A stretch of 64,000 nt of DNA from Acidisphaera sp. L21. Lineage in GTDB: Bacteria; Pseudomonadota; Alphaproteobacteria; Acetobacterales; Acetobacteraceae. Below, in pieces: positions 12,093-28,107 of this stretch. Made by a program: the position numbers and the translations under genes. Position 1 is the first letter of the stretch, and each line of letters starts with the position of its first letter. Location: positions 1 to 64,000 of the forward strand of contig NZ_LMUY01000052.1 of the NCBI RefSeq assembly GCF_009765685.1, read 5' to 3'. The notes under the pieces are model-generated. The model saw only the letters and a program-made list of their open reading frames with translations. It did no database searches and was not told the origin of the DNA.

Positions 12093-12994
12093 ACACGTCG
12101 ACCCCACGCGTCTTATCCGGTGCCGAGGTTCGCGCGCTATCCGTTCGATCCGATGTGCAGGGCGCGATCCAGATCGGGCTGCACCTGGCGTTCATAGGCA
12201 TCGCGGGCACGCTGGTCGCGTTCTCCGGTCCGTGGACGGTGGTGCCGGCGATCATCCTGCTGGGGTTGTCGCAGTCGACGCTGTTCGCGCCGATCCACGA
12301 GACGATGCATCTGACGGCATTTCGCAGCCGCCGGGCAAATGCGGTGGTCGGCTGGCTGGCGGCCTGCCCGTCCACGCTGAACTGGCATTTCTACACCGTG
12401 TTCCACCTGGCGCATCACCGCTTCACCCAGGACCCGGAGCGCGATCCGGAACTGAGCCCGCGGCCGCCCGCCAGCCTGGATGGCTACCTGATGCGGGTGT
12501 TGGCGGTGAATTACTGGCGCGCCCGGGCCGTTGTGCTGCGGGATTGCTGGCGCGGTGATCTGTCCGCCTATCCGTATATTCCCACCACCTCTGCCCCCCG
12601 CGTGATCGCCAGCGTACGCTGGATGAGTGCGCTGGTCGCCGTGCTCGCCGTTGGGTCGGCGTGGCTATTCGGTTGGTGGGTGCCGTTCGTGTTCTGGCTC
12701 ATCCCACAGGCGATGGGCCAGGTGTTCCTGCGGCTTTACTTGCTAACGGAGCATACCGGCTGCGACGAAACCCCGAACGGGCTAGTCAACACCCGCACCA
12801 CGCTCACCAACCGCATGATCCATCTGCTGATGTGGAACATGAGCTATCACGCGGAGCATCACCTCTACCCCTCCATCCCGTTCCACCGCCTGCCGGATGC
12901 CCACGTCGCAGTGCGCAGCCGGCTGGGGGTGATCCAGGACGGGTATGCGCGCTGGCACGCGGCCTACTTGAAGGGTATCCTAGGCCGCGCGTGA
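12089..12994 (+). CDS. Membrane fatty acid desaturase family protein
   Basis: 301 residues with the three histidine boxes of membrane di-iron desaturases and hydroxylases: HETMH, HLAHH and HAEHH. Four or so hydrophobic segments surround them. It would use O2 and an electron donor to desaturate or hydroxylate a lipid or related hydrocarbon chain at the membrane. Its start overlaps the ABC ATPase stop in an ATGA, so it is translationally coupled to a transporter operon, an unexpected partner. Its 3' end overlaps the convergent ureG by 15 bases. Substrate and regiospecificity are unknown; carotenoid or sterol-type hydroxylases share these boxes. Confidence 0.85.
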
Positions 12995-13603
12995 CAGGCC
13001 GCCGGATTTCTCGACGAACGCGGTGATGGCATCCACACCGTCGCCGGCGCGGATGTTGGTGAACACGAACGGGCGATCGCCGCGCATCTTGCGACTGTCG
13101 CGGTCCATCACCTCCAGGCTGGCGCCGACATGCGGGGCCAGGTCGATCTTGTTGATCACCAGCAGGTCGCTGCGGGTGATGCCGGGTCCGCCCTTGCGGG
13201 GGATCTTGTCGCCGGCGGATACGTCGATGACGTAGATGGTGATGTCGGCCAGTTCCGGGCTGAACGTGGCGGCCAAATTGTCGCCGCCGCTTTCGATCAG
13301 GATCACGTCCAGCTTCGGAAACCGCGCGCACAAATCGGCGACGCCAGCCAGGTTGATGCTGGCATCCTCACGGATTGCGGTGTGTGGGCAGCCGCCGGTT
13401 TCGATGCCCAAAATCCGCTCCGGCGGAAGTGACCCGGCTCGGGTGAGGAACTGGGCGTCCTCCTTCGTATAGATGTCGTTGGTGATGGCGGCGATGTTGT
13501 AGTGCGGTGACAAAGCGCGGCAGAGCTTGTCCATCAGCGCCGTCTTCCCCGTGCCGACCGGCCCGCCGACGCCAACCCGTAATGGCCCGTGTGTACTGCT
13601 CAT
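12980..13603 (-). CDS. ureG: Urease accessory GTPase UreG
   Basis: 207 residues with the SIMIBI-class P-loop GPVGTGKT near the N-terminus (residues 14-21), the C-P-H nickel/zinc-site motif ([11 protein letters not shown]) and the [14 protein letters not shown] segment. It hydrolyses GTP during nickel insertion into the urease active site together with UreE, UreF and UreD. Start at ATG 13603 gives the family length and overlaps the ureF stop by 4 bases; it is the last gene of the ure operon. Its 3' end overlaps the convergent desaturase gene. Confidence 0.97.
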
Positions 13604-14259
13604 GTGCGAAATAGCCTCGTATATTGCGTCTCGTGCCGCATGGCGGCGATGTCGGAGCGGAAGCACGCCCCGCCGATATCATCCAGGCCGGCGGTGGCCG
13701 TGTCGTGGGCGATGGCGGTGATCAGCGGCGCCAGCCCAGCGAGAATGCGCAGCCCGGCGGTTTGTCCCAACGGCACCAATCGCACTGCCGCGGATACCAA
13801 ATTGGCGGCGAAGGCGTGCAGCAGCCCGGTGGTGGCGTCATCCTCCGCCACGCCGTGTGCCGCGGCCAGCGACCCTACCGCGACCGGATAGGCAACCTGC
13901 CCGGCCTGGGCGGCCAGCAACGGCGCACCCCATACCTTTCCCGCCAGGGCGAAGGCGGTGCCTTGCGCCAATGTCTCCAGTCGACGCTCGGCACATGGCT
14001 GCGCAGCAGCGGCTAGTTCGGCGATTTCGGCCAGTGTGTCAGCCGTCGTCGCTCGATGAGCATGGCGCAGCAGAATGGCGTCCGTGCGTCCGGCGCCATG
14101 CGCCAGCACATCGGCCAACCAAGCGGCGGCGGTGGCCTCGTCCGTTACATCCCGCGCCTCGATCGCCCATTCCAGGCCGTGGCTGTAGGCGTAGGCGCCG
14201 GTCGGGAAGGCGGGCGACAACCAAGTGAGCAGCAGCGGTAGAGTGGTGCTAGTCGTCAT
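13600..14259 (-). CDS. ureF: Urease accessory protein UreF
   Basis: 219 residues from ATG 14259 ([28 protein letters not shown]). The S-P-A-F-P-x-G-A-Y-x-Y-S-H-G-L-E motif near the N-terminus is diagnostic for UreF. It is an all-helical protein that bridges UreG and UreD on apo-urease and controls GTPase activity. An in-frame ATG 12 codons earlier is less likely because it lies deeper in ureE. It overlaps the ureE 3' end by 11 bases and ureG by 4. Confidence 0.95.
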
Positions 14260-14713
14260 GGTGGTGATGGTGACCGCCGCCCGAATAGGCGCCACCTTCG
14301 GGGTCGAACGGGGCGTCGATCGCGTGGGCGTGGCCGCCCAGGCCGTGAATCATGTCGGCGATCACGTGGTCGGCCCGGATACGAATGCGATCACCCAATA
14401 ATTGCACCGGCAAATGCCGGTTCCCGAGATGCCAGGCGATGCGCACCAATTCGGCTGGGCCATGCGCGTGGATTTCCAGCAGCGGTTCTGCCTGGGCAAT
14501 GACCTGGACGACCCGGCCATCCGCCAATTCCAGCCCGTCGCCGTCGCGCAGGCGCACGGCCTGCGGAAGATCCAGCAGCAACTCCGCCCCGGCGGCGGTG
14601 GATAGCAATATGCGGCGGCGGTGGCGGCGGTCGAAATCGATCAGAACGCGGTCGGCGATCTCGCGACCGGCCCAGGTTCCGGCGGGAAGGACGGCGGTGG
14701 CGTGCAGGGTCAA
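14249..14713 (-). CDS. ureE: Urease accessory nickel metallochaperone UreE
   Basis: 154 residues beginning at a TTG that overlaps the ureC stop (TTGA), the same coupling geometry as the rest of the operon, and giving normal UreE length. The middle has the UreE signature [16 protein letters not shown]. The C-terminus is a histidine tail ending [10 protein letters not shown], which binds nickel for delivery to UreG and urease. Any longer version of this frame runs far into ureC and is not credible. Confidence 0.93.
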
Positions 14714-16416
14714 AACAGGAAGTACCGCTGCGCCATCGGCAACTCGGTCGCCGGGGCGCAGGTCAGCAACACGCCATCGGCGCGCACCTCGTAGGTTTCC
14801 GGATCGACCTCGATATTCGGCATCGCGTCGTTGTGGATCATGGAGTGTTTGCCGATCCCGCCGCGCGTGTCCTTCACTGTGGACAGCATCCGACGCAGCC
14901 CCAGCGTGTGGGCCAGATCTGCCTCCATCGCCGCGCCCGACAGGAAGGTGATGCAGGTTGCCGCCAACGCGCCGCCGAGCGTGCCGAACATCGGACGGTA
15001 ATGCACTGGCTGCGGGGTCGGGATGGAGGCGTTCGGGTCCCCCATCGGGGCGCAGACGATCATTCCACCCTTGATCACCAGGTCCGGCTTCACGCCGAAG
15101 AACGCCGGGGACCACAACACCAGATCGGCCAGTTTCCCAGCTTCGATGCTGCCGACTTCGTGGCTCAGCCCCTGCGCGATGGCGGGGTTGATGGTGTATT
15201 TGGCGACGTAGCGCTTCGCCCGCGCATTATCGGCCGCGCCATCGCCGGGCAACGCGCCGCGCTGCAGCTTCATTTTATGCGCGGTTTGCCAGGTGCGGAT
15301 GATCACCTCGCCAACCCGGCCCATCGCCTGACTGTCCGAGCTGATCATGCTGATCGCACCCATGTCGTGCAGGATGTCCTCGGCCGCAATTGTTTCGCGC
15401 CGGATGCGGCTTTCGGCGAAGGCCACGTCCTCCGGAATGTTCGGGTCCAGATGGTGGCAGACCATCAGCATGTCCAAATGCTCGTCCAGGGTGTTGGACG
15501 TGTAGGGGCGCGTCGGGTTGGTGGACGATGGCAGCACGTTCGGCAGCCCGGCGACGCGCAGGATATCCGGCGCATGGCCGCCGCCGGCGCCCTCGGTATG
15601 GAAGGCGTGGATGGTGCGGCCCTTGAACGCAGCGATCGTGTCCTCCACGAAGCCACTCTCGTTCAGCGTGTCGGTGTGGATCATCACGGGAACGTCGAAC
15701 CGGTCCGCAACCGACAGGCAGCAATCGATCGCCGCCGGGGTGGTGCCCCAATCCTCGTGCAGTTTCATCGAGGACGCGCCGGCCCGCAGCATTTCCTCCA
15801 GCGCCGCCGGGCGGGAGGCATTGCCCTTCGCCGAGAAAGCCAGGTTCACCGGCAGCCCCTCTGCCGCCTGCAACATACGCGCGAGGTACCATGGGCCCGG
15901 CGTGCATGTGGTGGCCGACGTGCCGCTGGCCGGCCCAGTGCCGCCGCCGCACATGGTGGTGATGCCGGAGGCCACTGCCTCCTCCACCTGCTGCGGACAG
16001 ATGAAATGGATATGCGCGTCCACCCCGCCGGCGGTCAGGATCTTGCCTTCGCAGGCGATTACCTCCGTACCTGGGCCAATGATGATGGTGATGCCGGGCT
16101 GCACGTCCGGATTGCCGGCCTTGCCGATGGCGGCGATGCGGCCGTTGGTGATGGCGACGTCGGCCTTCACGATGCCCCAATGGTCCAGGATCAGCGCGTT
16201 GGTGATAACGGTGTCGACCGCGCCCTCCGCCTGGCTGCGCTGAGACTGGCCCATGCCGTCACGGATGACCTTGCCGCCGCCGAACTTCACTTCCTCCCCA
16301 TACAGGGTCAGGTCACGCTCGACCTCGATGAACAACTCCGTATCGGCCAGGCGCACTCGGTCGCCGGTCGTGGGGCCGTACATGTCGGCGTAGGCACGCC
16401 GGGTGATGCGGGTCAT
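14710..16416 (-). CDS. ureC: Urease alpha subunit
   Basis: 568 residues, the standard UreC size. The amidohydrolase H-x-H is in [14 protein letters not shown]. The lysine expected to be carbamylated and bridge the two nickel ions is Lys218 in [10 protein letters not shown]. The active-site flap region [22 protein letters not shown], with its mobile Cys and His, is intact. It hydrolyses urea to ammonia and carbamate in the cytoplasm. Overlaps of 4 bases with ureB and ureE show tight coupling. Confidence 0.98.
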
Positions 16417-16718
16417 AGCGCACCCATGATGTCGCCGCGGAAGCCGTAAACCTCACGAGCGCCACGGAATGGCACGAGCGTCACCTCTCGCGCCTGCCCT
16501 GGCTCGAAGCGGACGGCGGTGCCGGCGGCGATGTCCAGCCGCTGGCCGCGCGCCTTGGCCCGGTCGAAATCCAGCGCCTTGTTAGTTTCGGCGAAATGGT
16601 AATGGCTGCCCACCTGGATCGGGCGATCACCGGTGTTGGCGACGGTGACGGTGGTGCGGGGCTGGCCGGCATTCAGCTCGATATCGCCATCCAGCGTGAT
16701 GATCTCGCCCGGGATCAT
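16413..16718 (-). CDS. ureB: Urease beta subunit
   Basis: 101 residues starting MIPGEI, with the typical [17 protein letters not shown]-x-E-x-N region of UreB and the Y-G-F-R end. It is a structural subunit of the (UreABC)3 complex that packs against the alpha subunit flap. ATGA overlaps link it to both ureA and ureC. Confidence 0.97.
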
Positions 16719-17017
16719 CGGATCGGCTCGTGCACGGTGACGAGCTTGGTGCCGTCGGGGAACGTTGCTTCCACCTGAACGTCGGCAATCATCTCGGCAA
16801 TGCCCTCCATCACCTGGTCCCGCGTCAGCACGTGGGCGCCGTGCTCCATCAGGTCGGCGACGGTGCGGCCGTCGCGGGCGCCCTCCACCACGAAATCGCT
16901 GATCAGGGCCACGGCCTCCGGATGGTTCAGCTTTACGCCACGGGCCAGGCGTTTGCGCGCTACCTCGGCCGCCATGGCGATCAGCAGCTTGTCCTTCTCG
17001 CGCGGGGTCAGGTTCAT
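16715..17017 (-). CDS. ureA: Urease gamma subunit
   Basis: 100 residues from ATG 17017 ([13 protein letters not shown]), the canonical UreA start and length. It has the [31 protein letters not shown] core and ends [13 protein letters not shown]. It is a small structural subunit of bacterial urease. It starts 4 bases after the ureD stop. Confidence 0.97.
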
Positions 17018-17021
17018 CGGG

Positions 17022-17843
17022 TCAGCAGCTCCAAACTCGGGGCAGCGGGCGGTCGCCGCGCAACGTGGCCAATCCTGCCACGATCGCGGCCCGTGCACAG
17101 GCCCCATCGTTCGCAATGATGCGGGCAATCAGCAAACTCTGCATGACGGAGGCACCGGCCTGCCAGGGTTCCAGCGCGGCGCGCAAGGCATCCAGCCGGT
17201 CCGCCGCGTCTGGCGACGCGTAGATCAGCGTCGCCGCAACGTGGCCGCCAGCCGCGATCGCCGGGCGATCGAGCAAGTCTTGCACGGGGCCATGCAGTCT
17301 GATGGCATCATGCAACAGCAGCGCGCCGCCCTGGCGGACCTGGATGGTATCGCTCAGCATCGCGTGACGCAGGGTTTCGCCCATCAATGCACGGCCGAAC
17401 ACCAGGGTTTCGACGCCCAGGAACCAGGCATCCGGCGCAAGGTCGACGGCCAGCCTGCGGTCCAGCGCGCAGCCGTCGAACAGGATGGTTTCCTGCGGCA
17501 GCCATTCCAGCGCCGCCCCCGCCTCCACCGTCAACGCCGTGCGCACATGCGCCGGGTCGCCACCCGGGGAGCGATAGAACCGCTCCGCCGCCTGGCTGGC
17601 CACCGTCAGACGAGTGCCCGGCCCGGCGCGAATGGCGGTGTCCAACCGATCCCCTTGCGCCACCCCGCCCGCACTGTTGAGCGTGACGGCACTCGTCCAG
17701 CCGCCGCGTTCCGGCCGGGGCCAGCGCGCCTTCAGGCAGCCCTCCTGGCGAAACCGGTCCAGCACGGTGTCGCCATCCCGGTCCTTCACCGCGATCCGCA
17801 AGGCGCCAAGCGACCGCTGCAGCGTTGCCGCAGCCGCGGTCAC
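17022..17843 (-). CDS. ureD: Urease accessory protein UreD
   Basis: 273 residues. Diagnostic UreD features are the [11 protein letters not shown] motif after residue 50 and the A-A-E-R-F-Y-R-S region. UreD binds apo-urease and forms the path through which UreG-bound nickel reaches the active site. It is the first gene of the ure set here (order D-A-B-C-E-F-G) and begins 7 bases after the stop of a small lipoprotein gene. Sequence divergence of UreD is normal for the family. Confidence 0.93.
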
Positions 17844-17850
17844 GCGGGCA

Positions 17851-18237
17851 TCATCGCGTCAATTCGCGCTGCTGCTGGGCGACACTGTTGCCGTATTGAC
17901 GACCAAGCTGGTTCACGCCCGAATCCAGTTGCTGGCGATTGATCTGCCCCTTGTTGAATTGCTGCTGCAGCGCGACGACGCCCTGGTTGTGCTGCTGCTG
18001 CAGATTGCTGATCGACTGGTTATAGCGTTCCTGCCGCTGCCGCAGTTGAGAGTCACCCCGCCGGTCATCGGCCTCACGACGTTCCTCATACTGGCGCGGC
18101 GGCGGACGACCGCCATACCCGTAACCGTAGCCCGGCCCGCGATCATAGCCATATCCCTGGGCATCACAGCCGGTCGCCACGACGCTCATCAGCGCCACCA
18201 TTACGATACCGGCCAGCGAAACCGCGCGAATTGTCAT
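17851..18237 (-). CDS. Small Gly/Tyr- and Gln-rich lipoprotein between urt and ure genes
   Basis: 128 residues. It has a hydrophobic signal segment ending in a lipobox-like V-A-T-G-C, then a Gly-Tyr repeat (GYGYDRGPGYGYGYGGR), an acidic/basic stretch, and a C-terminal Gln-rich helical region with repeated L-Q-Q-Q units that could form a coiled coil. ATG 18237 is chosen for its GGGAG site; a GTG three codons earlier is possible. It lies in the same orientation between urtE (89 bp upstream) and ureD (7 bp downstream), so it is probably co-transcribed. Function unknown; an envelope location is inferred from the lipobox. Confidence 0.75.
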   Translation of the reverse strand: MTIRAVSLAGIVMVALMSVVATGCDAQGYGYDRGPGYGYGYGGRPPPRQYEERREADDRRGDSQLRQRQERYNQSISNLQQQHNQGVVALQQQFNKGQINRQQLDSGVNQLGRQYGNSVAQQQRELTR

Positions 18238-18326
18238 TGCCGCCACTCCCTGTCCAATAGATGACGGAATGTAACAGCCGAACGGGGCAGTTTCAGGGCA
18301 GGAACGTCTCTATCGTGGGTTCCGTC

Positions 18327-19022
18327 TTAGACGGAGAGACGGCGGCGCACGTCATCTTCGTCCAGAGTGCCTGCCGGGCCGCTCAGCACGATGTCGCCGC
18401 GATCCATGATCGACATGCTCTGCGCCAGTTCGCGGGCAAAGTCGTAATATTGCTCCACCAGAATGATGGCCATCTCGCCCCGCGTGCGCAGCAGGGTGAT
18501 GACGCGCCCGATATCCTTGATGATGCTGGGCTGAATGCCCTCGGTCGGCTCGTCCATGATCAACAGGCGGGGCTTCATGACCAAAGCGCGTGCGATGGCG
18601 AGTTGCTGTTGCTGGCCGCCCGACAGATCGCCACCGCGGCGCCGCAGCATGGTCTTCAGGATGGGGAACAGTTCGAACATCTCGTCCGGCACCCGGCGTT
18701 CGCGCCGGGGTAGCACGGCGAAGCCGGTTTCCAGGTTTTCCCGCACCGTCAGCAGTGGGAACACGTCCCTGCCCTGCGGCACCCAGGCGATGCCGCGGCG
18801 CGCGCGTTCGAAGGTAGGCATGCGCGTGATGTCCTGGCCCTCCCACATCACCTTGCCCGCGCTGACGGGATGGGCGCCGGTGATGGCCCGCAACAGGCTG
18901 GTCTTGCCCACACCGTTGCGGCCCATGACGCACGTAACGGCGCCGGGCACCGCTTGTAGCGAGACGTTGCGCAGCGCGATGGCGGCGCCGTAATGCAGGT
19001 TGACGCCTTCGACGCTCAGCAT
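18327..19022 (-). CDS. urtE: Urea ABC transporter ATP-binding subunit UrtE
   Basis: 231 residues, a LivF-like ABC ATPase. Walker A is GRNGVGKT at 34-41, the signature is LSGGQQQQ and Walker B is LLIMDEPTEG followed by IQPSII, a UrtE-typical stretch. With UrtD it powers the UrtBC channel for urea import. The preceding order A-B-C-D and the downstream urease genes support urea over branched-chain amino acids. It starts 3 bases after urtD. Confidence 0.95.
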   Translation of the reverse strand: MLSVEGVNLHYGAAIALRNVSLQAVPGAVTCVMGRNGVGKTSLLRAITGAHPVSAGKVMWEGQDITRMPTFERARRGIAWVPQGRDVFPLLTVRENLETGFAVLPRRERRVPDEMFELFPILKTMLRRRGGDLSGGQQQQLAIARALVMKPRLLIMDEPTEGIQPSIIKDIGRVITLLRTRGEMAIILVEQYYDFARELAQSMSIMDRGDIVLSGPAGTLDEDDVRRRLSV

Positions 19023-19025
19023 GGC

Positions 19026-19769
19026 TCAACGCCCAAGATAGACCTCCACGACGCGCGGGTCTTCGCTCACATGGTCGATGCTGCCCTCGCTGAGCACGCT
19101 GCCTTCGTGCAGCACCGTCACCTTCACCCCCAGCGCGCGGACGAAGCCCATATCGTGCTCCACCACCACGACGCTGCGGGTCTTGTTGATCTCCCGCAGC
19201 AGCACGGCGGTCTGCTCGGTTTCAGAGTCGGTCATGCCGGCGACCGGTTCGTCCACCAGCAGCAATTGCGGCTCCTGCGCCAGCAACATTCCGATTTCCA
19301 GCCACTGCTTCTGCCCGTGGCTCAGGTCGCCGGAGCGACGGTTGCGTTGGTCGGTCAGGCGAGTGGTCTCCAGGATGGATTCGATCTTACGCCGCTCCTC
19401 CGCGGTTTCCTTGGCAAACAAGGTAAAGCGCGGGCCCCGATCGCCCGCCAGCGCCAGCAGCAGATTGTCCCAGACGGTGTGCGGCTCGAACACGGTCGGC
19501 TTCTGGAATTTACGGCCGATCCCCAGCCCGGCAATGGCCGGCTCGTCCAGCCGGGTCAGGTCTGTCGAGCCGCCGAACAGCACGTCGCCGGTGTTTGGCC
19601 GGGTCTTGCCGGTGATGACGTCCATCATCGTCGTTTTGCCGGCGCCGTTCGGCCCGATCACCGCGCGCATCTCGCCAGGGGTCAGCACCAGCGATAGGGC
19701 GTTCAGCGCGCGAAACCCGTCGAACGTGACGGAGACGTTGTCGAGGTACAGCAATGTCCCGTTGCTCAT
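19026..19769 (-). CDS. urtD: Urea ABC transporter ATP-binding subunit UrtD
   Basis: 247 residues from ATG 19769, 5 bases past the urtC stop. It is a LivG-like ATPase with Walker A GPNGAGKTT at 39-47, the UrtD-type signature LSHGQKQWLEIGM (serine-histidine in place of SG) and Walker B LLLVDEPVAGM followed by T-D-S-E, all typical of UrtD. It couples ATP hydrolysis to urea import with UrtE. A much longer in-frame start inside urtC is rejected. Confidence 0.95.
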   Translation of the reverse strand: MSNGTLLYLDNVSVTFDGFRALNALSLVLTPGEMRAVIGPNGAGKTTMMDVITGKTRPNTGDVLFGGSTDLTRLDEPAIAGLGIGRKFQKPTVFEPHTVWDNLLLALAGDRGPRFTLFAKETAEERRKIESILETTRLTDQRNRRSGDLSHGQKQWLEIGMLLAQEPQLLLVDEPVAGMTDSETEQTAVLLREINKTRSVVVVEHDMGFVRALGVKVTVLHEGSVLSEGSIDHVSEDPRVVEVYLGR

Positions 19770-19774
19770 CGAAC

Positions 19775-20896
19775 TCACGAGACGGCTTCCTTGGCGGCGG
19801 ACTCGGCCGGGGTCGGTGGGTCGGCGGGCAGCGGTGGGTCGCCCTTCTCCCGCACCGGCATCAGTCCCAGCAGGCCACGCGGCAAGAATAGCGTCACGAC
19901 GATGAACAGCGCACCCAGGGCAAACAGCCAAACCTCGGGCAGCGCGCCGGTGAGGATCGTCTTGCCGAAATTGACCAGCACAGCACCCAGGATCGGCCCG
20001 GCCAGCGTACCGCGGCCACCGACGGCGACCCAGATCACCGCCTCGATCGAGTTGGCGGGCGCGAATTCACCGGGATTGATGATGCCGACCTGCGGCACGT
20101 ATAGCGCCCCGCCAATCGCGGCCATCACGGCCGACAGCACCCACACGACCAGTTTATACTGCTCCGGTCGGTAGCCGATGAAGCGGGTGCGGCTTTCGGC
20201 ATCGCGCACCGCGATCATCACCTTGCCGAAGCGCGATCGCGTCACGGCCCGGGCCAGCAGGTAAAGGAGCGAGAGGGCGATCGCTGTGACCACCAGCAAC
20301 CCGCAGCGCGTGGTTTCCGCGGAGAGCGAGAAGCCCAGCAATTCCTTGAAATCGGTCAGCCCATTATTGCCGCCGAAGCCCATGTCGTTGCGGAAGAACG
20401 CCAGCAGTAGCGCGTAGGTTAGCGCCTGGGTGATGATGGACAGGTACACGCCGGTGACACGGCTACGAAATGCCAGATAGCCGAATACCGCGGCCAGGAT
20501 TGCCGGCACCACGACCGCCATCAGCATGGCAAAGCCGAACCAGTTGAAGCCGTACCAGAACCACGGCAATTCCTTGTAGTTCAGGAACACCATGAAGTCC
20601 GGCAGGATGGGGTTGGCATACACGCCGCGTGCGCCGATCTGGCGCATGAGGTACATCCCCATCGCGTAGCCACCCAGCGCGAAGAACGCGGCGTGGCCCA
20701 GCGTGAGTATCCCGACGAAGCCCCAAACCAGATCCACCGACAGCGCCAGGATCGCGTAGGACAGATACTTGCCTGCCAGCGACACCATGAACGTCGACAC
20801 ATGCACCGGTGAACTGGCCGCGGTGCCGAGGTTCAGCACCACCATCAGCACCGATATCCCCATGACGAGGAAGACGGTGAGCGCAGAGGCCTTCAT
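19775..20896 (-). CDS. urtC: Urea ABC transporter permease UrtC
   Basis: 373 residues, LivM-like, with about eight to nine membrane helices and the conserved D-L-V-W-G-F-V-G-I-L-T-L-G-H-A-A-F-F segment. A UrtC-type insertion (YKELPWFWYGFNWFGFA) follows the third helix. It forms the inner-membrane channel with UrtB. Its start overlaps the urtB stop by 4 bases. The C-terminal 25 residues are a hydrophilic Pro/Ala tail. Confidence 0.95.
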   Translation of the reverse strand: MKASALTVFLVMGISVLMVVLNLGTAASSPVHVSTFMVSLAGKYLSYAILALSVDLVWGFVGILTLGHAAFFALGGYAMGMYLMRQIGARGVYANPILPDFMVFLNYKELPWFWYGFNWFGFAMLMAVVVPAILAAVFGYLAFRSRVTGVYLSIITQALTYALLLAFFRNDMGFGGNNGLTDFKELLGFSLSAETTRCGLLVVTAIALSLLYLLARAVTRSRFGKVMIAVRDAESRTRFIGYRPEQYKLVVWVLSAVMAAIGGALYVPQVGIINPGEFAPANSIEAVIWVAVGGRGTLAGPILGAVLVNFGKTILTGALPEVWLFALGALFIVVTLFLPRGLLGLMPVREKGDPPLPADPPTPAESAAKEAVS

Positions 20897-22521
20897 GCCT
20901 CCACCGCCCGGCCTTTAAGCGGGAACATCCCACGTGGCCGCCTTTGAATGAACGCGATCAGCAATACCAACACGACGATCTTGCCCAACACGGCGCCGGC
21001 AATCGGTTCCAGAAATTTGTTGACCACGCCCAGCACCAGCGCCCCCAGCGCCGTGCCCCACAAATTGCCGACGCCGCCGAACACCACCACCATGAAGCTG
21101 TCGATGATGTAGCCCTGCCCCAGATTCGGGCTGACGTTATCGATCTGGCTCAGCGCCACACCCGCCATGCCGGCAATGCCGGAGCCGAGGCCGAACGTCA
21201 TCGCATCCACCCAGGGCGTGCGAATGCCCATGGCCGCGGCCATACGGCGGTTCTGCGTGACGGCCCGCATTCGCAGACCCAGCGAGGTGTAGCGCAGCAC
21301 CGCCATCAAAGCGGCCAGCACCAGCACGGCGAAGATGATGATCGCCAGCCGGTTGTTGGTGATCAGCACGCCGCCCACCTGCTCCGCCCCGCTCATCCAG
21401 GCCGGGCTGCCGACGTTGCGGTTGTCGGCGCCGAAGATCGAGCGCACGGCCTGCTGCAGCACCAGCGACAAGCCCCAAGTGGCCAGCAGCGTTTCCAGTG
21501 GACGGCCATAAAGGAAGCGGATCAAACACCGCTCGATCGCGACACCCACCACGCCCGATACCAGGAACGCCATCGGCACGGCGATGAACAGGCTGGCGCC
21601 GAACAGGCCCGGCGCGTAGTTGCGGATTGCCTCCTGCACCACGAACGTCGTGTAGGCGCCCAGCATCACCATTTCACCATGCGCCATGTTGATGACGCCC
21701 ATCACGCCGAAGGTGATGGCCAGCCCAGCCGCGGCCAGCAGCAGCACGGAACCGAGTGAGACGCCGTAGAACGCGCCCTGCACCACAGTCCAGACCTTCT
21801 GCCAAAGGTCGATGCTGTCGATCGCTTTGCCTGCGGCAGCGGCCACCGGTGGTGACGGGTTGGGAATGCTGCTCATGAACGAGCGGGATTCCATGTCCCC
21901 GCGGTTCGACAGGATGGCGATGGAGGCGAGCCGGTCCGCGTCGCTGCTGCCATCCGTGCCCAGGAGGGAGGCAGCACGCGCCTCCTGCATGGTGCGCTTG
22001 ATGCCCGGCACCGTTTCCTGCGCGATGGCCTTGTCGAGCACCGCAATTGCCGAGGTGTCGCGTGAATGGAACACGGCCTCCGCCGCGGCGGCGCGTTGTG
22101 CCGGGTCGGTGGACAGTAGGCGCACGATGCCGAGCGCGGTATCCACCGCCACGCGCACGTTATTATTCACCCGCAGCGGACGGGCGCCCGGCGCCTCCGT
22201 TGGCTGCCCGGTGGCTGCGGACACTGTGCCCGTATCCGTCTTGATGTAGATTTGCTTGTCGGTGCCGACCAGCAGCCGGCCAGCCTGCAACGCCGCTAAA
22301 ATATCCCCGGCACGCGGATCACCCGACGCCGCCAGCGATCCCACACCCTGCTGGATCTGGCTAAAACTCGTGGACGCGAATTGCGATAGATCCGGCTCTG
22401 CCCGAGCCGACACGCACATCATGAACAGTGCGACGAGGACCCCCACCCCCTTGAGCAGGGAAGAAGGGGGCAACCGCCCCCTCCGAGGATCCAGGGGCTG
22501 CGCCCCCGGCCTTGCCCCCAT
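20893..22521 (-). CDS. urtB: Urea ABC transporter permease UrtB
   Basis: About 540 residues, with the long N-terminal extracytoplasmic helical-repeat domain that marks UrtB, followed by a LivH-like permease of about eight helices (G-L-A-I-T-F-G-V-M-G-V-I-N-M-A-H-G-E). The start is uncertain. ATG 22521 sits right after the urtA stop, but its first 16 codons translate a GC-rich palindromic repeat. A TTG at 22473, preceded by GGAGG and giving a normal signal peptide ending V-S-A-R-A, is at least as plausible. It forms the channel with UrtC. Confidence 0.93.
   Translation of the reverse strand: MGARPGAQPLDPRRGRLPPSSLLKGVGVLVALFMMCVSARAEPDLSQFASTSFSQIQQGVGSLAASGDPRAGDILAALQAGRLLVGTDKQIYIKTDTGTVSAATGQPTEAPGARPLRVNNNVRVAVDTALGIVRLLSTDPAQRAAAAEAVFHSRDTSAIAVLDKAIAQETVPGIKRTMQEARAASLLGTDGSSDADRLASIAILSNRGDMESRSFMSSIPNPSPPVAAAAGKAIDSIDLWQKVWTVVQGAFYGVSLGSVLLLAAAGLAITFGVMGVINMAHGEMVMLGAYTTFVVQEAIRNYAPGLFGASLFIAVPMAFLVSGVVGVAIERCLIRFLYGRPLETLLATWGLSLVLQQAVRSIFGADNRNVGSPAWMSGAEQVGGVLITNNRLAIIIFAVLVLAALMAVLRYTSLGLRMRAVTQNRRMAAAMGIRTPWVDAMTFGLGSGIAGMAGVALSQIDNVSPNLGQGYIIDSFMVVVFGGVGNLWGTALGALVLGVVNKFLEPIAGAVLGKIVVLVLLIAFIQRRPRGMFPLKGRAVEA
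22461..22519. repeat. GC-rich double-hairpin (REP-like) element at the urtA/urtB junction
   Basis: Two tight palindromes lie side by side: GGGGGC-AACC-GCCCCC (22466-22481) and GGGGC-TGC-GCCCC (22494-22506), with G/C runs between and after them. The style matches dispersed palindromic intergenic elements common in GC-rich alphaproteobacteria. Here it covers the apparent start region of urtB and may stabilise the urtA message or reduce read-through to the permease genes. A second copy was not found in the window. Confidence 0.55.
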
Positions 22522-22523
22522 GC

Positions 22524-23834
22524 TCAGGTCTTCCCGGCGCCGCCGCACTTGCCGAGCTTGACGTTGTAATTGCCGCAGGACATCGGCGGCAGCCAATCGC
22601 TGATCAGGTCCTTCGAGCCTTCAAGGTACGGCGACCAGGCTTCGGCGACGATGGTGCCCGGCGTTTGGCTGACGACGTTGAACTGGCCGTCCGCCTGGAT
22701 TTCGCCGATCAGCACCGGCTTGGTGATGTGATGGTTCGGCATCATGGTGGACAGGCCGCCCGTCAGGTTCGGCACGGACACGCCGATCATCGCGGGGATG
22801 ACCTTCGCCGGGTCGTAGCTCTCGGCCTTCTCGACGCCCTTCACCCACATGTTGAAGCCGATATAGGCGGCTTCCATCGGGTCGTTGGTGACGCGCTTCG
22901 GGTTCTTCGTGTAGGCGTGCCACTGGTCGATGAACGCCTTGTTCGTCGGGACATCCACGCTTTCGAAGTAGTTCCAGGCGGCCAGGTGGCCCACAAGCGG
23001 CTTGGTGTCGATGCCGGCCAGTTCTTCCTCACCGACGGAGAAGGCGACGACGGGGATGTCGGTCGCCTTGATGCCCTGGTTCGACAGTTCCTTGTAGAAC
23101 GGCACGTTGGCGTCGCCGTTGATGGTGGAGACCACGGCGGTCTTCTTGCCGGCGGATCCGAACTTCTTGATGTCGGCCACGATGGTCTGCCAATCGGAAT
23201 GACCGAACGGCGTGTAGTTGATCATGATGTCTTCGGACTTCACGCCCTTGGACTTCAGATAGGCTTCCAGGATCTTGTTGGTGGTGCGCGGATAGACGTA
23301 GTCCGTGCCGGCCAGCACCCAACGGGTGATCTTGTTTTCCGACATCAGGTAGTCGACAGCCGGGATCGCCTGCTGATTCGGCGCGGCGCCGGTGTAGAAC
23401 ACGTTCTTGCTGCTCTCCTCACCCTCATACTGGACGGGGTAGAACAGGATGTTGCCCAGTTCCTCGAACACTGGCAGGACCGACTTGCGCGACACGCTGG
23501 TCCAGCAGCCGAACACGGCGCTCACCTTGTCGACGGTGATCAGTTGGCGGGCCTTCTCGGCAAACAGCGGCCAGTTGGACGCCGGGTCGACGACGACTGC
23601 CTCCAGCTTCTTGCCGAGCACGCCGCCCTTGGCGTTCTGCGCGTCGATCAGCATGAGCATGACGTCCTTCAACGTCGTCTCGCTGATGGCCATCGTGCCG
23701 GACAGTGAGTGCAGGATGCCGATCTTGATCGTGCTGGCGGCGGTCTGCGCATTGGCGACGCGGCCGATTCCCATGGCAGCGGCGGCGGCAACCGCCATCG
23801 CCCCAAAATTCCGTCTAGTGACTGTGGGCTGCAT
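22524..23834 (-). CDS. urtA: Urea ABC transporter substrate-binding protein UrtA
   Basis: 436 residues from ATG 23834, preceded by GGGGAG. It begins with a twin-arginine type signal (T-R-R-N-F-G-A-M-A) and an A-N-A-Q cleavage site. The mature protein starts with I-K-I-G-I-L-H-S-L-S-G-T-M-A-I-S-E-T, the hallmark of UrtA rather than LivK, and has the F-Y-P-V-Q-Y-E-G segment that lines the urea site. It is periplasmic. It is the first gene of the urt block and lies about 28 bases downstream of the predicted sigma-54 transcription start. Confidence 0.96.
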   Translation of the reverse strand: MQPTVTRRNFGAMAVAAAAAMGIGRVANAQTAASTIKIGILHSLSGTMAISETTLKDVMLMLIDAQNAKGGVLGKKLEAVVVDPASNWPLFAEKARQLITVDKVSAVFGCWTSVSRKSVLPVFEELGNILFYPVQYEGEESSKNVFYTGAAPNQQAIPAVDYLMSENKITRWVLAGTDYVYPRTTNKILEAYLKSKGVKSEDIMINYTPFGHSDWQTIVADIKKFGSAGKKTAVVSTINGDANVPFYKELSNQGIKATDIPVVAFSVGEEELAGIDTKPLVGHLAAWNYFESVDVPTNKAFIDQWHAYTKNPKRVTNDPMEAAYIGFNMWVKGVEKAESYDPAKVIPAMIGVSVPNLTGGLSTMMPNHHITKPVLIGEIQADGQFNVVSQTPGTIVAEAWSPYLEGSKDLISDWLPPMSCGNYNVKLGKCGGAGKT

Positions 23835-23873
23835 TCTTATCTCCCCGTTGGTGTCCGAGCGTCGGGTTGAATG

Positions 23874-23889
23874 AGCAATGATCGTGCCA
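23874..23889 (-). promoter_or_regulatory. Predicted sigma-54 (RpoN) promoter of urtA
   Basis: Read on the minus strand this is TGGCAC-GATCA-TTGCT, an exact match to the -24/-12 consensus with the invariant GG and GC separated by 10 bases. Transcription would start near 23862, leaving a leader of about 28 bases before the urtA ATG. Sigma-54 control of urea uptake through NtrC is known in other proteobacteria, so the placement makes biological sense. Confidence 0.75.
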
Positions 23890-23951
23890 TCGCGAAAACG
23901 TGAGTTGGATGTCTGCATCCGGACCCGGCTGCCGCGTGTTTCGTCAGGCTG

Positions 23952-24006
23952 TGCTTAATTCAGGTGCAACACGGTCGGGCTATGTCGCTCTGAAAAATAG
24001 CTGCAC
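23952..24006 (-). promoter_or_regulatory. NtrC-like binding sites upstream of the urtA promoter
   Basis: A 17-base element TGCTTAATTCAGGTGCA at 23952-23968 matches the NtrC dyad (TGCAC...GGTGCA) at 9 of the 11 defined arm positions, and a separate TGCAC half-site is at 24002-24006. Their centres are about 98 and 140 bases upstream of the predicted start, the usual distance for NtrC enhancers. The match is by eye and the second site is only a half-site. Confidence 0.45.
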
Positions 24007-24069
24007 TCAAGCCGAGATGCGCGGCAACTGATGACCGCGCCCGTCGTGTTGGGTTGACCAGCAGGGCGT

Positions 24070-24834
24070 TCACTCGCTTCCGCCCTCCGAGCCCAACATC
24101 GCCCGCAGGCCCTTCGCCACGGCCGCGAACTCCGGCGAGGTGGGCAGGCGTGGGCGCGGCATGTCCACCATGACCTCCGCCGCCAATCGTCCGGGCCGTG
24201 GTGTGAAGACCAGGATGCGGTCGGCCAAGAACACCGCTTCCTCGATACTGTGGGTGACGAACAGCACCGTGGTTCGTTGCGATGCCCAGATGGACAGCAA
24301 TTCGGCCTGCAAATGGCCGCGGGTCTGCGCGTCCAGCGCACCGAATGGCTCGTCCATCAACAAGGCACGGGGATGCGTGGTCAGCGCCCGGGCGATGCCG
24401 ACGCGCTGGCGCATGCCGCCCGACAGTTCATGCGGATAGCTGCCGACAAAGGCGGTCAGCCCCGTCAGCGCCAACATGTCATCGGCCCGCGCGCGCCGGG
24501 CGGCCGGGGGGACGCGACGCGCCTTCATGTTGAACTCGACATTCGCCCGCACCGTCATCCAGGGGAACAGGCCGTGGTCCTGGAACACGATGCTGGTTTC
24601 GCTGGACGGGCCATCCAACACCTGACCCGCCACCGTGATCCGTCCGGTGGTCGGCTGTTCCAGCCCGGCGATCATTTGCAGCAACGTGCTCTTGCCGCAG
24701 CCGGATAGGCCAAGTAGGCACACGAACTCGCCTTCCGCACAGGCCAGGCTGATGCCCTGTAGCGCCTCCACCGGGCGTCCTTTGCCGGTGTAGGTTTTGC
24801 CAACGCCGGCGCAGGTGATAAAACCGCCGCTCAT
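24070..24834 (-). CDS. ABC transporter ATPase, NitT/TauT family
   Basis: 254 residues. Walker A GLSGCGKST is at 42-50, the signature is LSGGMRQRVGIARAL and Walker B is ALLMDEPFGALD, with the H-loop in VLFVTHSIEEAVFLADR. All are typical of the SsuB/TauB/NrtD type. Start ATG 24834 overlaps the permease stop by 4 bases; longer in-frame starts run into the permease gene. It is the last gene of a four-gene operon with a hydantoinase at its head, so the substrate may be a hydantoin, pyrimidine or related nitrogen compound. Confidence 0.93.
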   Translation of the reverse strand: MSGGFITCAGVGKTYTGKGRPVEALQGISLACAEGEFVCLLGLSGCGKSTLLQMIAGLEQPTTGRITVAGQVLDGPSSETSIVFQDHGLFPWMTVRANVEFNMKARRVPPAARRARADDMLALTGLTAFVGSYPHELSGGMRQRVGIARALTTHPRALLMDEPFGALDAQTRGHLQAELLSIWASQRTTVLFVTHSIEEAVFLADRILVFTPRPGRLAAEVMVDMPRPRLPTSPEFAAVAKGLRAMLGSEGGSE

Positions 24835-25595
24835 TCCCGTTCGGCCAACAGCCCCTCCTGCCAGCGGCATACCCGGGCGCGCAGGCGGCTGACGGATTGG
24901 TCCGCCACCAGGCCGATCGCGCCGATGACGATGATACCGGCGAAGATCAGTTCGGTGCGGAACGTCATCTGCGCGTTGAGAATCATGTAGCCCAGGCCGG
25001 ATTTCACGGCGATCATCTCCGCCGTTACCACCGTCAGCCAGCCGCCGCCGATCGCCAGGCGCAGGCCGGTGAAGATCGCCGGCAGCGCTGCGGGGAGTAT
25101 GATGTCGCGCAGCACCAGCGCCTCGCTCGCGCGGGCGGCGCGGGCCACCTTCAGCAGCGTCCGCTCGATCCCGCGCACGCCGAATATCGTGTTCAGCAAC
25201 AGCGGCCATAGCGCCGACAGAAAGATCAGCACGATCGCCGGGGTGTCGCCGATGCCGAAAAACAGCATCGCCAGGGGGATCAGCGAGATCGGCGGCACGG
25301 ATCGGAAGGCCTGGATCGACCAGTCGGTCAGCCGGTCCAGCGCCGGGTAGCGCCCGATCAGCAGCCCGGCCGGCACTGCCACGGCGAAGGCCAGCCCTAC
25401 GCCGATGACCACCCGCAACACGCTTGCGCCAGCATTGGCCAGGATGGTCGGCCCCCAGCGCACGAACGAGTCGGCCACCTTGGCCGGGGCGGGCAGCAAC
25501 ACGGGCGGATAAAGCTGCAGGGACACGGCCAATTGCCAGGCCGCCACCAACGCGACGATCGGCAGCAGCCCGGCAAGCCGGGACAAACGCGGCAT
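24831..25595 (-). CDS. ABC transporter permease, NitT/TauT (SsuC-like)
   Basis: 254 residues with about six membrane helices and the binding-protein-dependent transport loop (ERTLLKVARAARASEALVLRDIILPAALPAIFTGLR). It begins with a single arginine-rich turn and a hydrophobic helix, as SsuC/TauC proteins do. It lies 9 bases after the substrate-binding protein gene and overlaps the ATPase gene by 4 bases. It likely works as a homodimer in the inner membrane. Confidence 0.93.
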   Translation of the reverse strand: MPRLSRLAGLLPIVALVAAWQLAVSLQLYPPVLLPAPAKVADSFVRWGPTILANAGASVLRVVIGVGLAFAVAVPAGLLIGRYPALDRLTDWSIQAFRSVPPISLIPLAMLFFGIGDTPAIVLIFLSALWPLLLNTIFGVRGIERTLLKVARAARASEALVLRDIILPAALPAIFTGLRLAIGGGWLTVVTAEMIAVKSGLGYMILNAQMTFRTELIFAGIIVIGAIGLVADQSVSRLRARVCRWQEGLLAERE

Positions 25596-25604
25596 GAAGG
25601 CGGG

Positions 25605-26525
25605 TTAAATGAAGCTGGTGTTGATGAACTCGTTCCAGTCCGGTTCCTTGTCCAGCAACTTGTCGTCGATCATCATCTGGGCCAGTGATTTCAAACCGCT
25701 TTGGAAGGCCGCGCCGCTATCGGCATTGAAGAACAGGTTCTTCGTGCTGGCCACCGCAATATCGCGATCCATGTTGAACTGCTTGATGGTGGTTTCCACT
25801 GCGATGGACGGGTCGGTGCGCATCTTCTCCGTCGCCGCCACGTGCGCCTTCACCAGCTTGCCCACCAGTTCCGGGTTCTTCTTCACATAACTGGTGCTGG
25901 CGACAAAGCCGAGGTTGGTCTTGCCCATGGGCGTATCGTACGGGACCCACAGCCGTGTGCCGAACTTGTTCATCTCGGCGAAGGTGGAATACGGCTCGAA
26001 ACAGCAAATCGCGTCCACGTCGCCGCGGGCCAGCGGGGTGGGTTGGTCCTGGTTGTCCAGGAACACCAGTTCGACCTTATCCGTCAGCCCTTCCTGCCGC
26101 AGCTTCCAATTCAGGCTCACCAATCCGATGGAGCCGTTTTGCACGGCGATCTTTTTGCCTTTCAGTTGGGCGAAGCTGGTGATGCCGGGTTTGGCGATCA
26201 TCATCCAGCCGCCGTCGCAGCCATTGGCCAACACCGTCATCGGCAAGCCTTTGGTCGCGACCTGCATCGTGGCCGACAGCCCGCCGTTGCCCACATCCAC
26301 GCTGCCGGTCGCCACCGCCTGCATGCGCTGCACCAGGCTGGGGAAGCTGACGATTTCGGCGTCGATCCCCTGAGGCTTCAGCAGATCCGGCATCAGGAAC
26401 ATCGCGTTGGTGGTGGTGGTGAAGGCGGATCCGAGCTTCACCTTCTGCATCGACTGGCCAAGGGAGGCATGCGGAACGATCGCCGGGGCACACAGCAACC
26501 CGGCGGTGAAAAGGCGGCGTTTCAT
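25605..26525 (-). CDS. ABC transporter substrate-binding protein, NMT1/SsuA-like
   Basis: 306 residues from ATG 26525, beginning MKRRLFTAGLLCAPAIVPHA, a Sec or weak Tat signal peptide cut near A-S-L-G-Q. The mature part has the NMT1/THI5-like layout: a short strand start K-V-K-L-G-S-A, D-V-G-N-G-G-L-S-A-T, and the LARGDVDAICCFEPYS loop. Such proteins bind sulfonates, nitrate, taurine, pyrimidine precursors or similar solutes. The gene upstream in the operon is a hydantoinase, which hints at a cyclic ureide or pyrimidine ligand. Confidence 0.9.
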   Translation of the reverse strand: MKRRLFTAGLLCAPAIVPHASLGQSMQKVKLGSAFTTTTNAMFLMPDLLKPQGIDAEIVSFPSLVQRMQAVATGSVDVGNGGLSATMQVATKGLPMTVLANGCDGGWMMIAKPGITSFAQLKGKKIAVQNGSIGLVSLNWKLRQEGLTDKVELVFLDNQDQPTPLARGDVDAICCFEPYSTFAEMNKFGTRLWVPYDTPMGKTNLGFVASTSYVKKNPELVGKLVKAHVAATEKMRTDPSIAVETTIKQFNMDRDIAVASTKNLFFNADSGAAFQSGLKSLAQMMIDDKLLDKEPDWNEFINTSFI

Positions 26526-26599
26526 CAAGATGCGGCTCCCTGGCGACGTTGCCGTGCGCGAAGCAAGACGCGCGCCACGACGCCGCAACCAGCGGGCGG

Positions 26600-28042
26600 C
26601 TAAAACGCCGCCGCGTCGAACCCGTCCGGCAGCACGCCGCGTGGGCGGATCGCGTCATAGGCGGGCACGGGAATGTAGCGACCGCTGCCGGGCTTCGCCT
26701 GCACGACGCCGTCCTTCATCACCACCTGGCCGCGCAGGATGGTGGCGACGGGCCAGCCGGTCACCTCCTTGCCCTCGTACGGGGTGTAGTCGATCGCCTG
26801 CTGCATCAGCGCGTTGGTGATGGTGACTTTCTTCGCCGGGTCCCACAGCACCAGATCGGCGTCGGCACCCGGCGCGATCCGGCCCTTCGCCTGCAGGCCG
26901 AACAGCCAGGCGGGCTGCGTCGCCGTCAGCCGAACGAAGTCGCTGGGCGTGATGTGGCCGCCGGCCACGCCCTCGCTCCACAACAACGGCAGGCGCGCGG
27001 CCAGGCCGGGGACGCCGTTCGGGATCTTGGTGAACGGCGCATCGTCTCCCCCGGCCCGCTTGCCGCGCGCGCCGTCGTAGCACCAGCCGCTATGGTCGGA
27101 ACTGATGACCTCCAGCGTGCGCAGGCGGATTGCCTCCCACAGCGCCGCAGTGCCGGCGGCGTCGCGTGGGGCGGGGCTGCACATGAACTTGGCGCCCTCG
27201 AACCCTGGCCGGTCCATGTCTTCGGCCGTCAGCACCAGATATTGCGGGCAGGTCTCGCCCCACACCTTTACGCCACGGCGCTGCGCCCGGGCGATCTCCT
27301 CCGCCGCCTGGCTGCCGGAAACGTGGAATACCTCGATCGGCGTGTCCACCAACTCGGCCAGGGCGATGGCGCGGTGCGTCGCCTCCCGCTCGACCACTTC
27401 GGGGCGGGACCAGGCGTGGTATTTCGCCGCGGTGCGGCCATCGGCCAGCAGCGCTTTCGAGCGCCATGCGATGGCGTCGTAATTCTCGCAGTGCACCGTC
27501 ACCAGGCAGCCGAGCCGGCGGGCGGCGGACAGCACCTCCAGATACTCGCGATCGTCCAGGCGCAGCGGATCGTAGGTGAGGAACACCTTGAGGCTGCGCA
27601 CGCCGCTGGCCACCAGTTCGGGCAGTTCGGTGCGGATCACCGCCTCGGTCGCGTCGGTGATGATCTGGTGGAACGCGTAATCCACCATCGCCCCCGCCGC
27701 CGCCCGGCGGCGATATTCCGCCAATGGGGCCAGCACGCCGCCGCCCTTGAACTGGGTGGAGAAGGTGACGACGCTGGTGGTCCCGCCCGCCAAGGCCGCG
27801 GTGCTGCCGGTGAGGAACGTCTCCTCGTCCGCGCCGCCGCCGTCCTGCAACTGTTCGATATGGCAGTGGCTGTCGACACCGCCGGGCATGACGAACAGGC
27901 CGGTCGCGTCGATTTCTGGGCCGCCCTCCAGGCGGTCGGCGATCGCGGCGATACGGCCGGCCCGGATGCCGATATCGGCGAGGAATTGGTCGGATGCGGT
28001 CACAACGGTGCCGCCGCGAACGATCAGATCAAACTCCGGCAT
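26600..28042 (-). CDS. Hydantoinase/dihydropyrimidinase family amidohydrolase
   Basis: 480 residues from ATG 28042, preceded by GAGGAG. It is a TIM-barrel amidohydrolase with metal-binding H59-C-H61 in GGVDSHCHIEQ, the carbamylated lysine Lys152 in RSLKVFLTYDPL, histidines in VTVHCENYD and VFHVSGSQ, and the aspartate in SSDHSGW. It opens the ring of dihydropyrimidines or 5-substituted hydantoins to N-carbamoyl amino acids. No N-carbamoylase gene is present nearby. It heads the operon with the NitT/TauT-type transporter and is divergent from hutF across 65 bases. Confidence 0.9.
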   Translation of the reverse strand: MPEFDLIVRGGTVVTASDQFLADIGIRAGRIAAIADRLEGGPEIDATGLFVMPGGVDSHCHIEQLQDGGGADEETFLTGSTAALAGGTTSVVTFSTQFKGGGVLAPLAEYRRRAAAGAMVDYAFHQIITDATEAVIRTELPELVASGVRSLKVFLTYDPLRLDDREYLEVLSAARRLGCLVTVHCENYDAIAWRSKALLADGRTAAKYHAWSRPEVVEREATHRAIALAELVDTPIEVFHVSGSQAAEEIARAQRRGVKVWGETCPQYLVLTAEDMDRPGFEGAKFMCSPAPRDAAGTAALWEAIRLRTLEVISSDHSGWCYDGARGKRAGGDDAPFTKIPNGVPGLAARLPLLWSEGVAGGHITPSDFVRLTATQPAWLFGLQAKGRIAPGADADLVLWDPAKKVTITNALMQQAIDYTPYEGKEVTGWPVATILRGQVVMKDGVVQAKPGSGRYIPVPAYDAIRPRGVLPDGFDAAAF

Positions 28043-28107
28043 GGTAGTGCTCCTCATCGAGACGAATAGACCTGCACGTAAGAAGCCCGGGGCGATACTG
28101 TCCAGCC

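Follow-up and report, generated by a model that had tools for sequence, protein, structure and literature searches.

The window, by which we mean the whole 64-kb stretch of Acidisphaera sp. L21 DNA analysed here, carries genes for urea uptake (urtABCDE) followed by genes for urease (ureDABCEFG), with a small lipoprotein-like ORF between the two blocks (Table 1). From urtA to ureG all of these genes lie on one strand, and large gaps occur at the urtA-urtB and urtE-ureD junctions alone. The 235-base gap between urtA (ATG at 23834) and an ABC transporter ATPase gene that ends at 24070 holds a sigma-54-type element and an NtrC-type dyad. Genes for a dihydropyrimidinase-like enzyme and an NMT1-type ABC transporter lie upstream of urtA on the same strand (24070-28129, minus), so that two nitrogen-scavenging units may stand in tandem around urtA.

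Table 1. Genes and putative control elements of the urea uptake and urease region, in the order in which they would be transcribed
Feature	Position	Strand	Basis
NtrC-type dyad TGCACCTGAATTAAGCA, centre ~97 bases before predicted +1	23952..23968	-	Weight matrix trained without this locus
Weak second dyad TGACGAAACACGCGGCA, 22 bases downstream of the first, tentative	23930..23946	-	Score 7.0-7.3, below the cut of 10
-24/-12 (sigma-54) element TGGCACGATCATTGCT	23874..23889	-	Exact consensus and conservation
Predicted +1, plus or minus 2	23863	-	12 bases past the C of the -12 GC
Ribosome-binding site GGGGAG of urtA	23841..23846	-	Direct reading
urtA, urea ABC transporter substrate-binding protein	22524..23834	-	TIGR03407, 563 bits (cut-off 492.75)
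urtB (longest ORF; true start further downstream)	20893..22596	-	TIGR03409, 413 bits
urtC	19775..20896	-	TIGR03408, 440 bits
urtD (start approximate)	19026..19778	-	TIGR03411, 372 bits
urtE	18327..19022	-	TIGR03410, 337 bits
Small lipoprotein-like ORF between urtE and ureD	17851..18237	-	Cys in ATGC after a hydrophobic stretch, by eye
ureD	17022..17843	-	Position, and matches between urtE and ureA in relatives; no NCBIfam match
ureA (start approximate)	16715..17020	-	tblastn, 84-90% identity in the 7 close relatives that reach it, same order
ureB	16413..16718	-	tblastn, 75-84% identity in the same 7 close relatives, same order
ureC, urease alpha subunit	14710..16416	-	TIGR01792, 975 bits
ureE (start approximate)	14249..14780	-	tblastn, 58-69% in the 4 close relatives that reach it
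ureF (start approximate)	13600..14259	-	tblastn, 57-70% in the same 4 close relatives as ureE
ureG (start approximate)	12980..13606	-	TIGR00101, 344 bits

The small ORF gave no Pfam match in its 131-aa form, no NCBIfam match in its 128-aa form, and no tblastn match at 1e-4 in the stretches of 18 relatives. Opposite ureC, at 15983-16265 on the plus strand, there is an antisense match to Rfam RF02514 (5' ureB sRNA; E 1.2e-21), which may reflect just conserved urease coding sequence rather than an antisense RNA. Among the 20 largest direct and 25 longest inverted repeat families listed, nothing was tied to the promoter.

The -24/-12 element agrees with TGGCAC-N5-TTGCT at every position, with GG and GC at -24 and -12, and it is the sole exact match to the sigma-54 consensus in the window. 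Chance would supply 0.053 exact matches per window (300 mononucleotide shuffles), and the one observed is therefore ~19 times the expectation. Near-matches with at most two mismatches are not enriched (35 observed vs 38 expected), so that the exact, well-placed match alone carries the weight. The genome as a whole contains 14 exact matches, while a reversed control pattern occurs in it 6 times; by itself the motif is thus suggestive only. Both of these counts would suit a chance match in GC-rich DNA, but the position of the element, its conservation and the dyad with which it is paired speak so clearly the other way that we consider coincidence extremely improbable. By convention, sigma-54 promoters start 12 bases after the -12 GC, and the predicted start in Table 1 follows this rule. 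The initial annotation had reported an exact RpoN match about 28 bases from the urtA start; the match is indeed exact, but the element ends 39 bases before the ATG, and 28 is the distance from the predicted +1 (~23863) to the ATG.

That annotation had also suggested looking for the same promoter ahead of urtA in related genomes. When this is done, both the -24/-12 element and the NtrC-type dyad prove to be strongly conserved, with exceptions. We compared 105 loci, made up of 80 named urtA genes and 25 usable loci from other genomes (the window's own included), and called a promoter wherever a sigma-54 weight matrix, its weights set beforehand and not fitted, scored at least 11 between -200 and +15 of urtA. 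A site was found in 75 of the 105, again counting the window's own; in the controls, the same scan returned 5 sites for the reverse strand, 1 for coding sequence and 24 for 2100 shuffles. Please note that one locus with a missing N-terminus was left out of this count, and that some genomes are present twice under two names (one pair of loci has identical upstreams), which brings the number of distinct loci slightly below 105.

The 30 loci without a site comprise 22 of the 80 named and 8 of the 25 others, one of them with just 99 bases upstream, too short to judge. They include Ensifer, Sinorhizobium, Neorhizobium and Agrobacterium loci, three labelled Rhizobium, three from Azospirillum and both from Pleomorphomonas. 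Scanning these 30 to 1500 bases upstream gave same-strand matches in 3 (at -596 to -783) and opposite-strand matches in 8. The sigma-54 site, present in many other alphaproteobacteria, is missing from most urtA loci that carry a Rhizobium, Neorhizobium, Agrobacterium, Sinorhizobium, Ensifer or Rhizobiaceae label and from the three of Azospirillum (15 loci), and in these lineages urea uptake may be regulated differently; a metagenome-assembled genome labelled Rhizobium (L033) does have the site. In 6 of 8 loci of a second urtA clade in the window's own family (64-69% identity), the -24 reads TGGCAC and the -12 is a variant, either TCGCA or TCGCT. The sigma-54 element before urtA is real and conserved, but ordinary in kind.

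In NtrC-activated promoters the dyads lie roughly 100-200 bases upstream, and two or more good ones are expected. The initial annotation had described a near-complete NtrC dyad in this region by its likeness to the enteric form. The dyad at 23968-23952 stands, but the enteric consensus is a poor reason for calling it: TGCACCTGAATTAAGCA agrees at 9 of 12 positions, and 8.2% of shuffled upstreams score as high. As a detector the enteric consensus, TGCACC-N5-GGTGCA, has little power in general (10 of 74 loci reach at least 9/12, against that 8.2% of shuffles), and we replaced it with a TGC-N11-GCA box. This spacing came from a consensus-free count of TGC-Nk-GCA for k from 3 to 30, in which five near-duplicate or short upstreams had been removed (75 to 70, the window's own kept). 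The count peaks at k=11, with 26 of 70 loci against 3.0 in shuffles, and lies between 3 and 16 for every other k except k=27 (21 loci). The peak at 11 recurs in an independent set, in 24 of 51 loci, where any other k from 3 to 30 reaches at most 10; the one at 27, with 10 of 51 there, was dropped.

A symmetric matrix fitted to the upstreams without the window's locus (69 sequences) reads approximately TGCCYA-AWWWT-TRGGCA. On this matrix TGCACCTGAATTAAGCA scores 12.5, a value that was reached in 5 cases when the same stretch was shuffled 2000 times, and 12.2 after a refit. Fitting the box on shuffled sequences also gains members (0-36 of 69 over ten runs); in-sample counts (62/69) were therefore set aside, and held-out counts alone are taken as evidence. 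Across ten half-and-half hold-outs, 27-32 of the 35 test loci carried the box at a score of at least 10. The controls gave 0.2-2.6 for shuffles, 0-2 for coding sequence and 0-1 of 34-35 for far-upstream regions. Among loci fetched after training, 38 of 50 promoter-bearing upstreams had the box, whereas only 1 of 20 promoter-less upstreams did; the corresponding shuffles had it in 16 of 1000 and 10 of 400. This set comprises 71 of 77 loci, six having no tblastn anchor, and one promoter-bearing upstream within it was too short. At the cut used, 12 of the 50 promoter-bearing loci have no box. As the learnt box differs from the enteric form, scans with the enteric consensus may well overlook the majority of sites in the window's family.

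The window's dyad is weaker than that of many relatives, and there is no strong second dyad (best 7.0-7.3). An extra NtrC half-site had been proposed near 24006; registers through it score -0.4 at best, and this claim falls away. The dyad at 23946..23930 is a better, though still weak, candidate for a second site, judged by its score. All in all, the initial annotation was correct in the main and mistaken on minor points.

The genome encodes the proteins that such a promoter calls for. RpoN is present (PF04552, 2.4e-67), and near its end we read ARRTVAKYRD, which we take to be the RpoN box. One NtrC exceeds the TIGR01818 cut-off (693.8 vs 558.6 bits), with its GAFTGA loop intact. An NtrX-like protein, so named from its place after a histidine kinase, lies 2.3 kb from NtrC and lacks GAFTGA. 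There are at least three further NtrC-like proteins with GAFTGA-type loops (L017, GAFTGA; L019, GSFTGA; L020, GAFSGA), and one of the genome's other enhancer-binding proteins might then activate the sigma-54 promoter in place of NtrC. We think this very unlikely: the NtrX-like neighbour has no GAFTGA, the promoter follows NtrC and not RpoN across the family (see below), and the same type of dyad recurs before P-II and amtB genes, which are classic NtrC targets. Two of the three P-II genes have it, with AGCCTATTTGTTGGGCA lying 146 bases ahead of the one in front of amtB and TGCCTATTTCGTAGGCA 195 bases ahead of the other. The sigma-54-like sites before these two boxed genes are poor, with 3 and 2 mismatches respectively. 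Before the third P-II gene there is a sigma-54 site with a single mismatch but no good dyad.

In a first set of 22 genomes, with NtrC called at 1e-150, NtrC was missing from 5 and RpoN from 1, and the promoter was present in 14 of 17 NtrC-bearing vs 1 of 5 NtrC-less genomes. The single NtrC-less genome to keep the promoter is 82% complete (G033). The RpoN DNA-binding domain gave one full match in 20 of 21 family genomes searched and a split match in the remaining one (G007), and yet the promoter is absent from 6 of the 21.

We then counted more widely, searching 297 genomes of the family, at least 90% complete and overlapping with the first set, for urtA and NtrC. At 1e-150, urtA was matched in 150 other family genomes, of which 88 were used; the remaining 62 are the second urtA clade (64-69% identity) together with one genome whose match lacks the N-terminus. 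The cut that defines the window's urtA type, a bit score of at least 635, was set before the new upstreams were fetched, though the upstreams of the first relatives had already been seen; it keeps G007, whose UrtA is 67% identical and has ureABC downstream. The promoter is present in 64 of these 88 genomes, divided as 62 of 79 with NtrC vs 2 of 9 without (Fisher 0.0013, uncorrected for phylogeny). The two NtrC-less keepers are fragmented drafts, and other sampled members of their genera have NtrC. Counted by hand at the level of genera, and likewise uncorrected for phylogeny, the promoter occurs in at least one member of 26 of 31 uniformly NtrC-bearing genera vs 0 of 4 uniformly NtrC-less ones, with 3 genera mixed. 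Box counts for these genomes (49/62 and 2/2 of the promoter-bearing) mix training and new loci and were not used as evidence.

This co-occurrence points to a tendency for promoter and regulator to disappear jointly. The link is not an obligatory one, since 17 of the 79 NtrC-bearing genomes have no promoter; one of the 17 has a near-threshold site (10.2) and a good dyad. We would give an even chance to an evolutionary reading in which, within the window's family, the urea unit depends for its control on NtrC itself. Where ntrC was lost and rpoN kept, the urtA promoter and box would have decayed, and some lineages that kept NtrC would separately have freed urea use from nitrogen control.

How far a transcript from this promoter would extend is a question for the gene order. 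In all eight close relatives read (UrtA 76-85% identical, contig continuing beyond urtE), the urt and ure genes are contiguous, on one strand and in the same order: ureD follows urtE in each, ureABC are found in the seven that extend that far, and the small ORF is matched in none. Two of the eight (L138 and L142) keep the order with the promoter absent. This arrangement makes co-transcription as far as ureG likely. The initial annotation had placed urtABCDE, the lipoprotein and ureDABCEFG under general nitrogen control, which the promoter, the NtrC link and the gene order support; a single transcript through ureG is what the order of the genes makes probable.

It may be, on the other hand, that the sigma-54 promoter drives urtABCDE only, with urease either under a separate promoter or isolated by structures at the urtA-urtB or urtE-ureD junction. 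Between urtA and urtB (22400-22530, minus strand) there is indeed a stable GC-rich fold (z -2.84), with one exact copy of the arm sequence in the window; these hairpins could lower read-through, and could adjust how much binding protein is made relative to permease. The separation of urtE from ureD, ~490 bases, holds a gene not found in the relatives' stretches, and in the second urtA clade of the family none of the 8 stretches examined, each of 15 kb, has ure genes. Against such a division, urt and ure lie side by side on one strand in all eight close relatives, and our scan of 12500-28500 returned no sigma-70-type promoter on the minus strand, a single match on the other strand, and terminator-like sites at the level of chance (9 found vs 9.0 expected). 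We regard a transcript confined to urtABCDE as unlikely, though the most serious of the competing explanations.

Taken together, the exact and conserved element, the held-out box and the regulators encoded in the genome make it highly probable that urtA has a working RpoN promoter, activated by NtrC under nitrogen limitation, with a transcript that covers urtABCDE and probably runs on through ureDABCEFG; binding, activation, the start site and the extension to ureG are what we infer. Under nitrogen limitation, phosphorylated NtrC would bind the dyad at 23968-23952, and perhaps the weaker one at 23946-23930. It would then loop to the RpoN polymerase held at -24/-12 and open the promoter by ATP hydrolysis. 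A transcript starting near 23863 would cover urtABCDE and probably continue through the small lipoprotein-like gene into ureDABCEFG, and urea would thus be taken up and hydrolysed to ammonia only at times of nitrogen need.

Control of urt by RpoN/NtrC has been published before, in other lineages. For Bradyrhizobium sp. DOA9, the available text of one report (PMC13207237) gives a predicted -24/-12 element, TGGCATGGTTCTTGC, at -77 for urtA-B-C, and a fall in ureA-D and urtA-D expression in rpoN mutants; it contains no analysis of NtrC sites. The same TGGCATGGTTCTTGC element occurs in four Bradyrhizobium loci of our comparison; in contrast to the window, DOA9 has a different gene order, and the -12 of these four loci reads TTGCG. 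An NtrC regulog built by comparative genomics, the same kind of inference as ours, includes ureABC and urtABCDEF; the portion of that source available to us names Alteromonadales, Oceanospirillales, Rhizobiales and Rhodobacterales, and does not name the window's family (PMC5343134). Sigma-54 promoters at urease genes are predicted, again in a partial text, mainly from alpha- and betaproteobacteria (PMC12316311). The excerpt available on Caulobacter (PMC10274813) describes an NtrC motif related to, yet distinct from, that of E. coli; it also states that NtrC of Caulobacter and Rhodobacterales lacks GAFTGA, and that R. capsulatus NtrC is reported to act via sigma-70. The NtrC of our genome, also alphaproteobacterial, differs from these in having GAFTGA, and given the Caulobacter case the intact loop is worth stating. 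Among the literature matches listed, no title dealt with a sigma-54/NtrC promoter of urtA in the window's family, which is weak evidence of absence.

With the present analysis, one more alphaproteobacterial family would join those in which NtrC and RpoN govern urea uptake and urease, and the NtrC box put forward for it is both tested and suited to the lineage. Annotation should profit from this, as should predictions of the conditions under which such bacteria turn to urea. No established view is overturned, and a modest evolutionary twist is added to an ordinary kind of promoter.

The genes that follow other exact sigma-54 matches of the genome also deserve a mention. Those after 10 of the 14 sites were scanned against Pfam, and they include genes for a cyanate lyase, an amidase, an ABC substrate-binding protein and an ABC permease, as well as OsmC-like and luciferase-like proteins. 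The NtrC box scores below the cut of 10 before the first four (permease 9.5, cyanate lyase 8.9, substrate-binding protein 7.2, amidase 2.1). The exact sigma-54 sites before these four genes may belong to a wider nitrogen-scavenging regulon.
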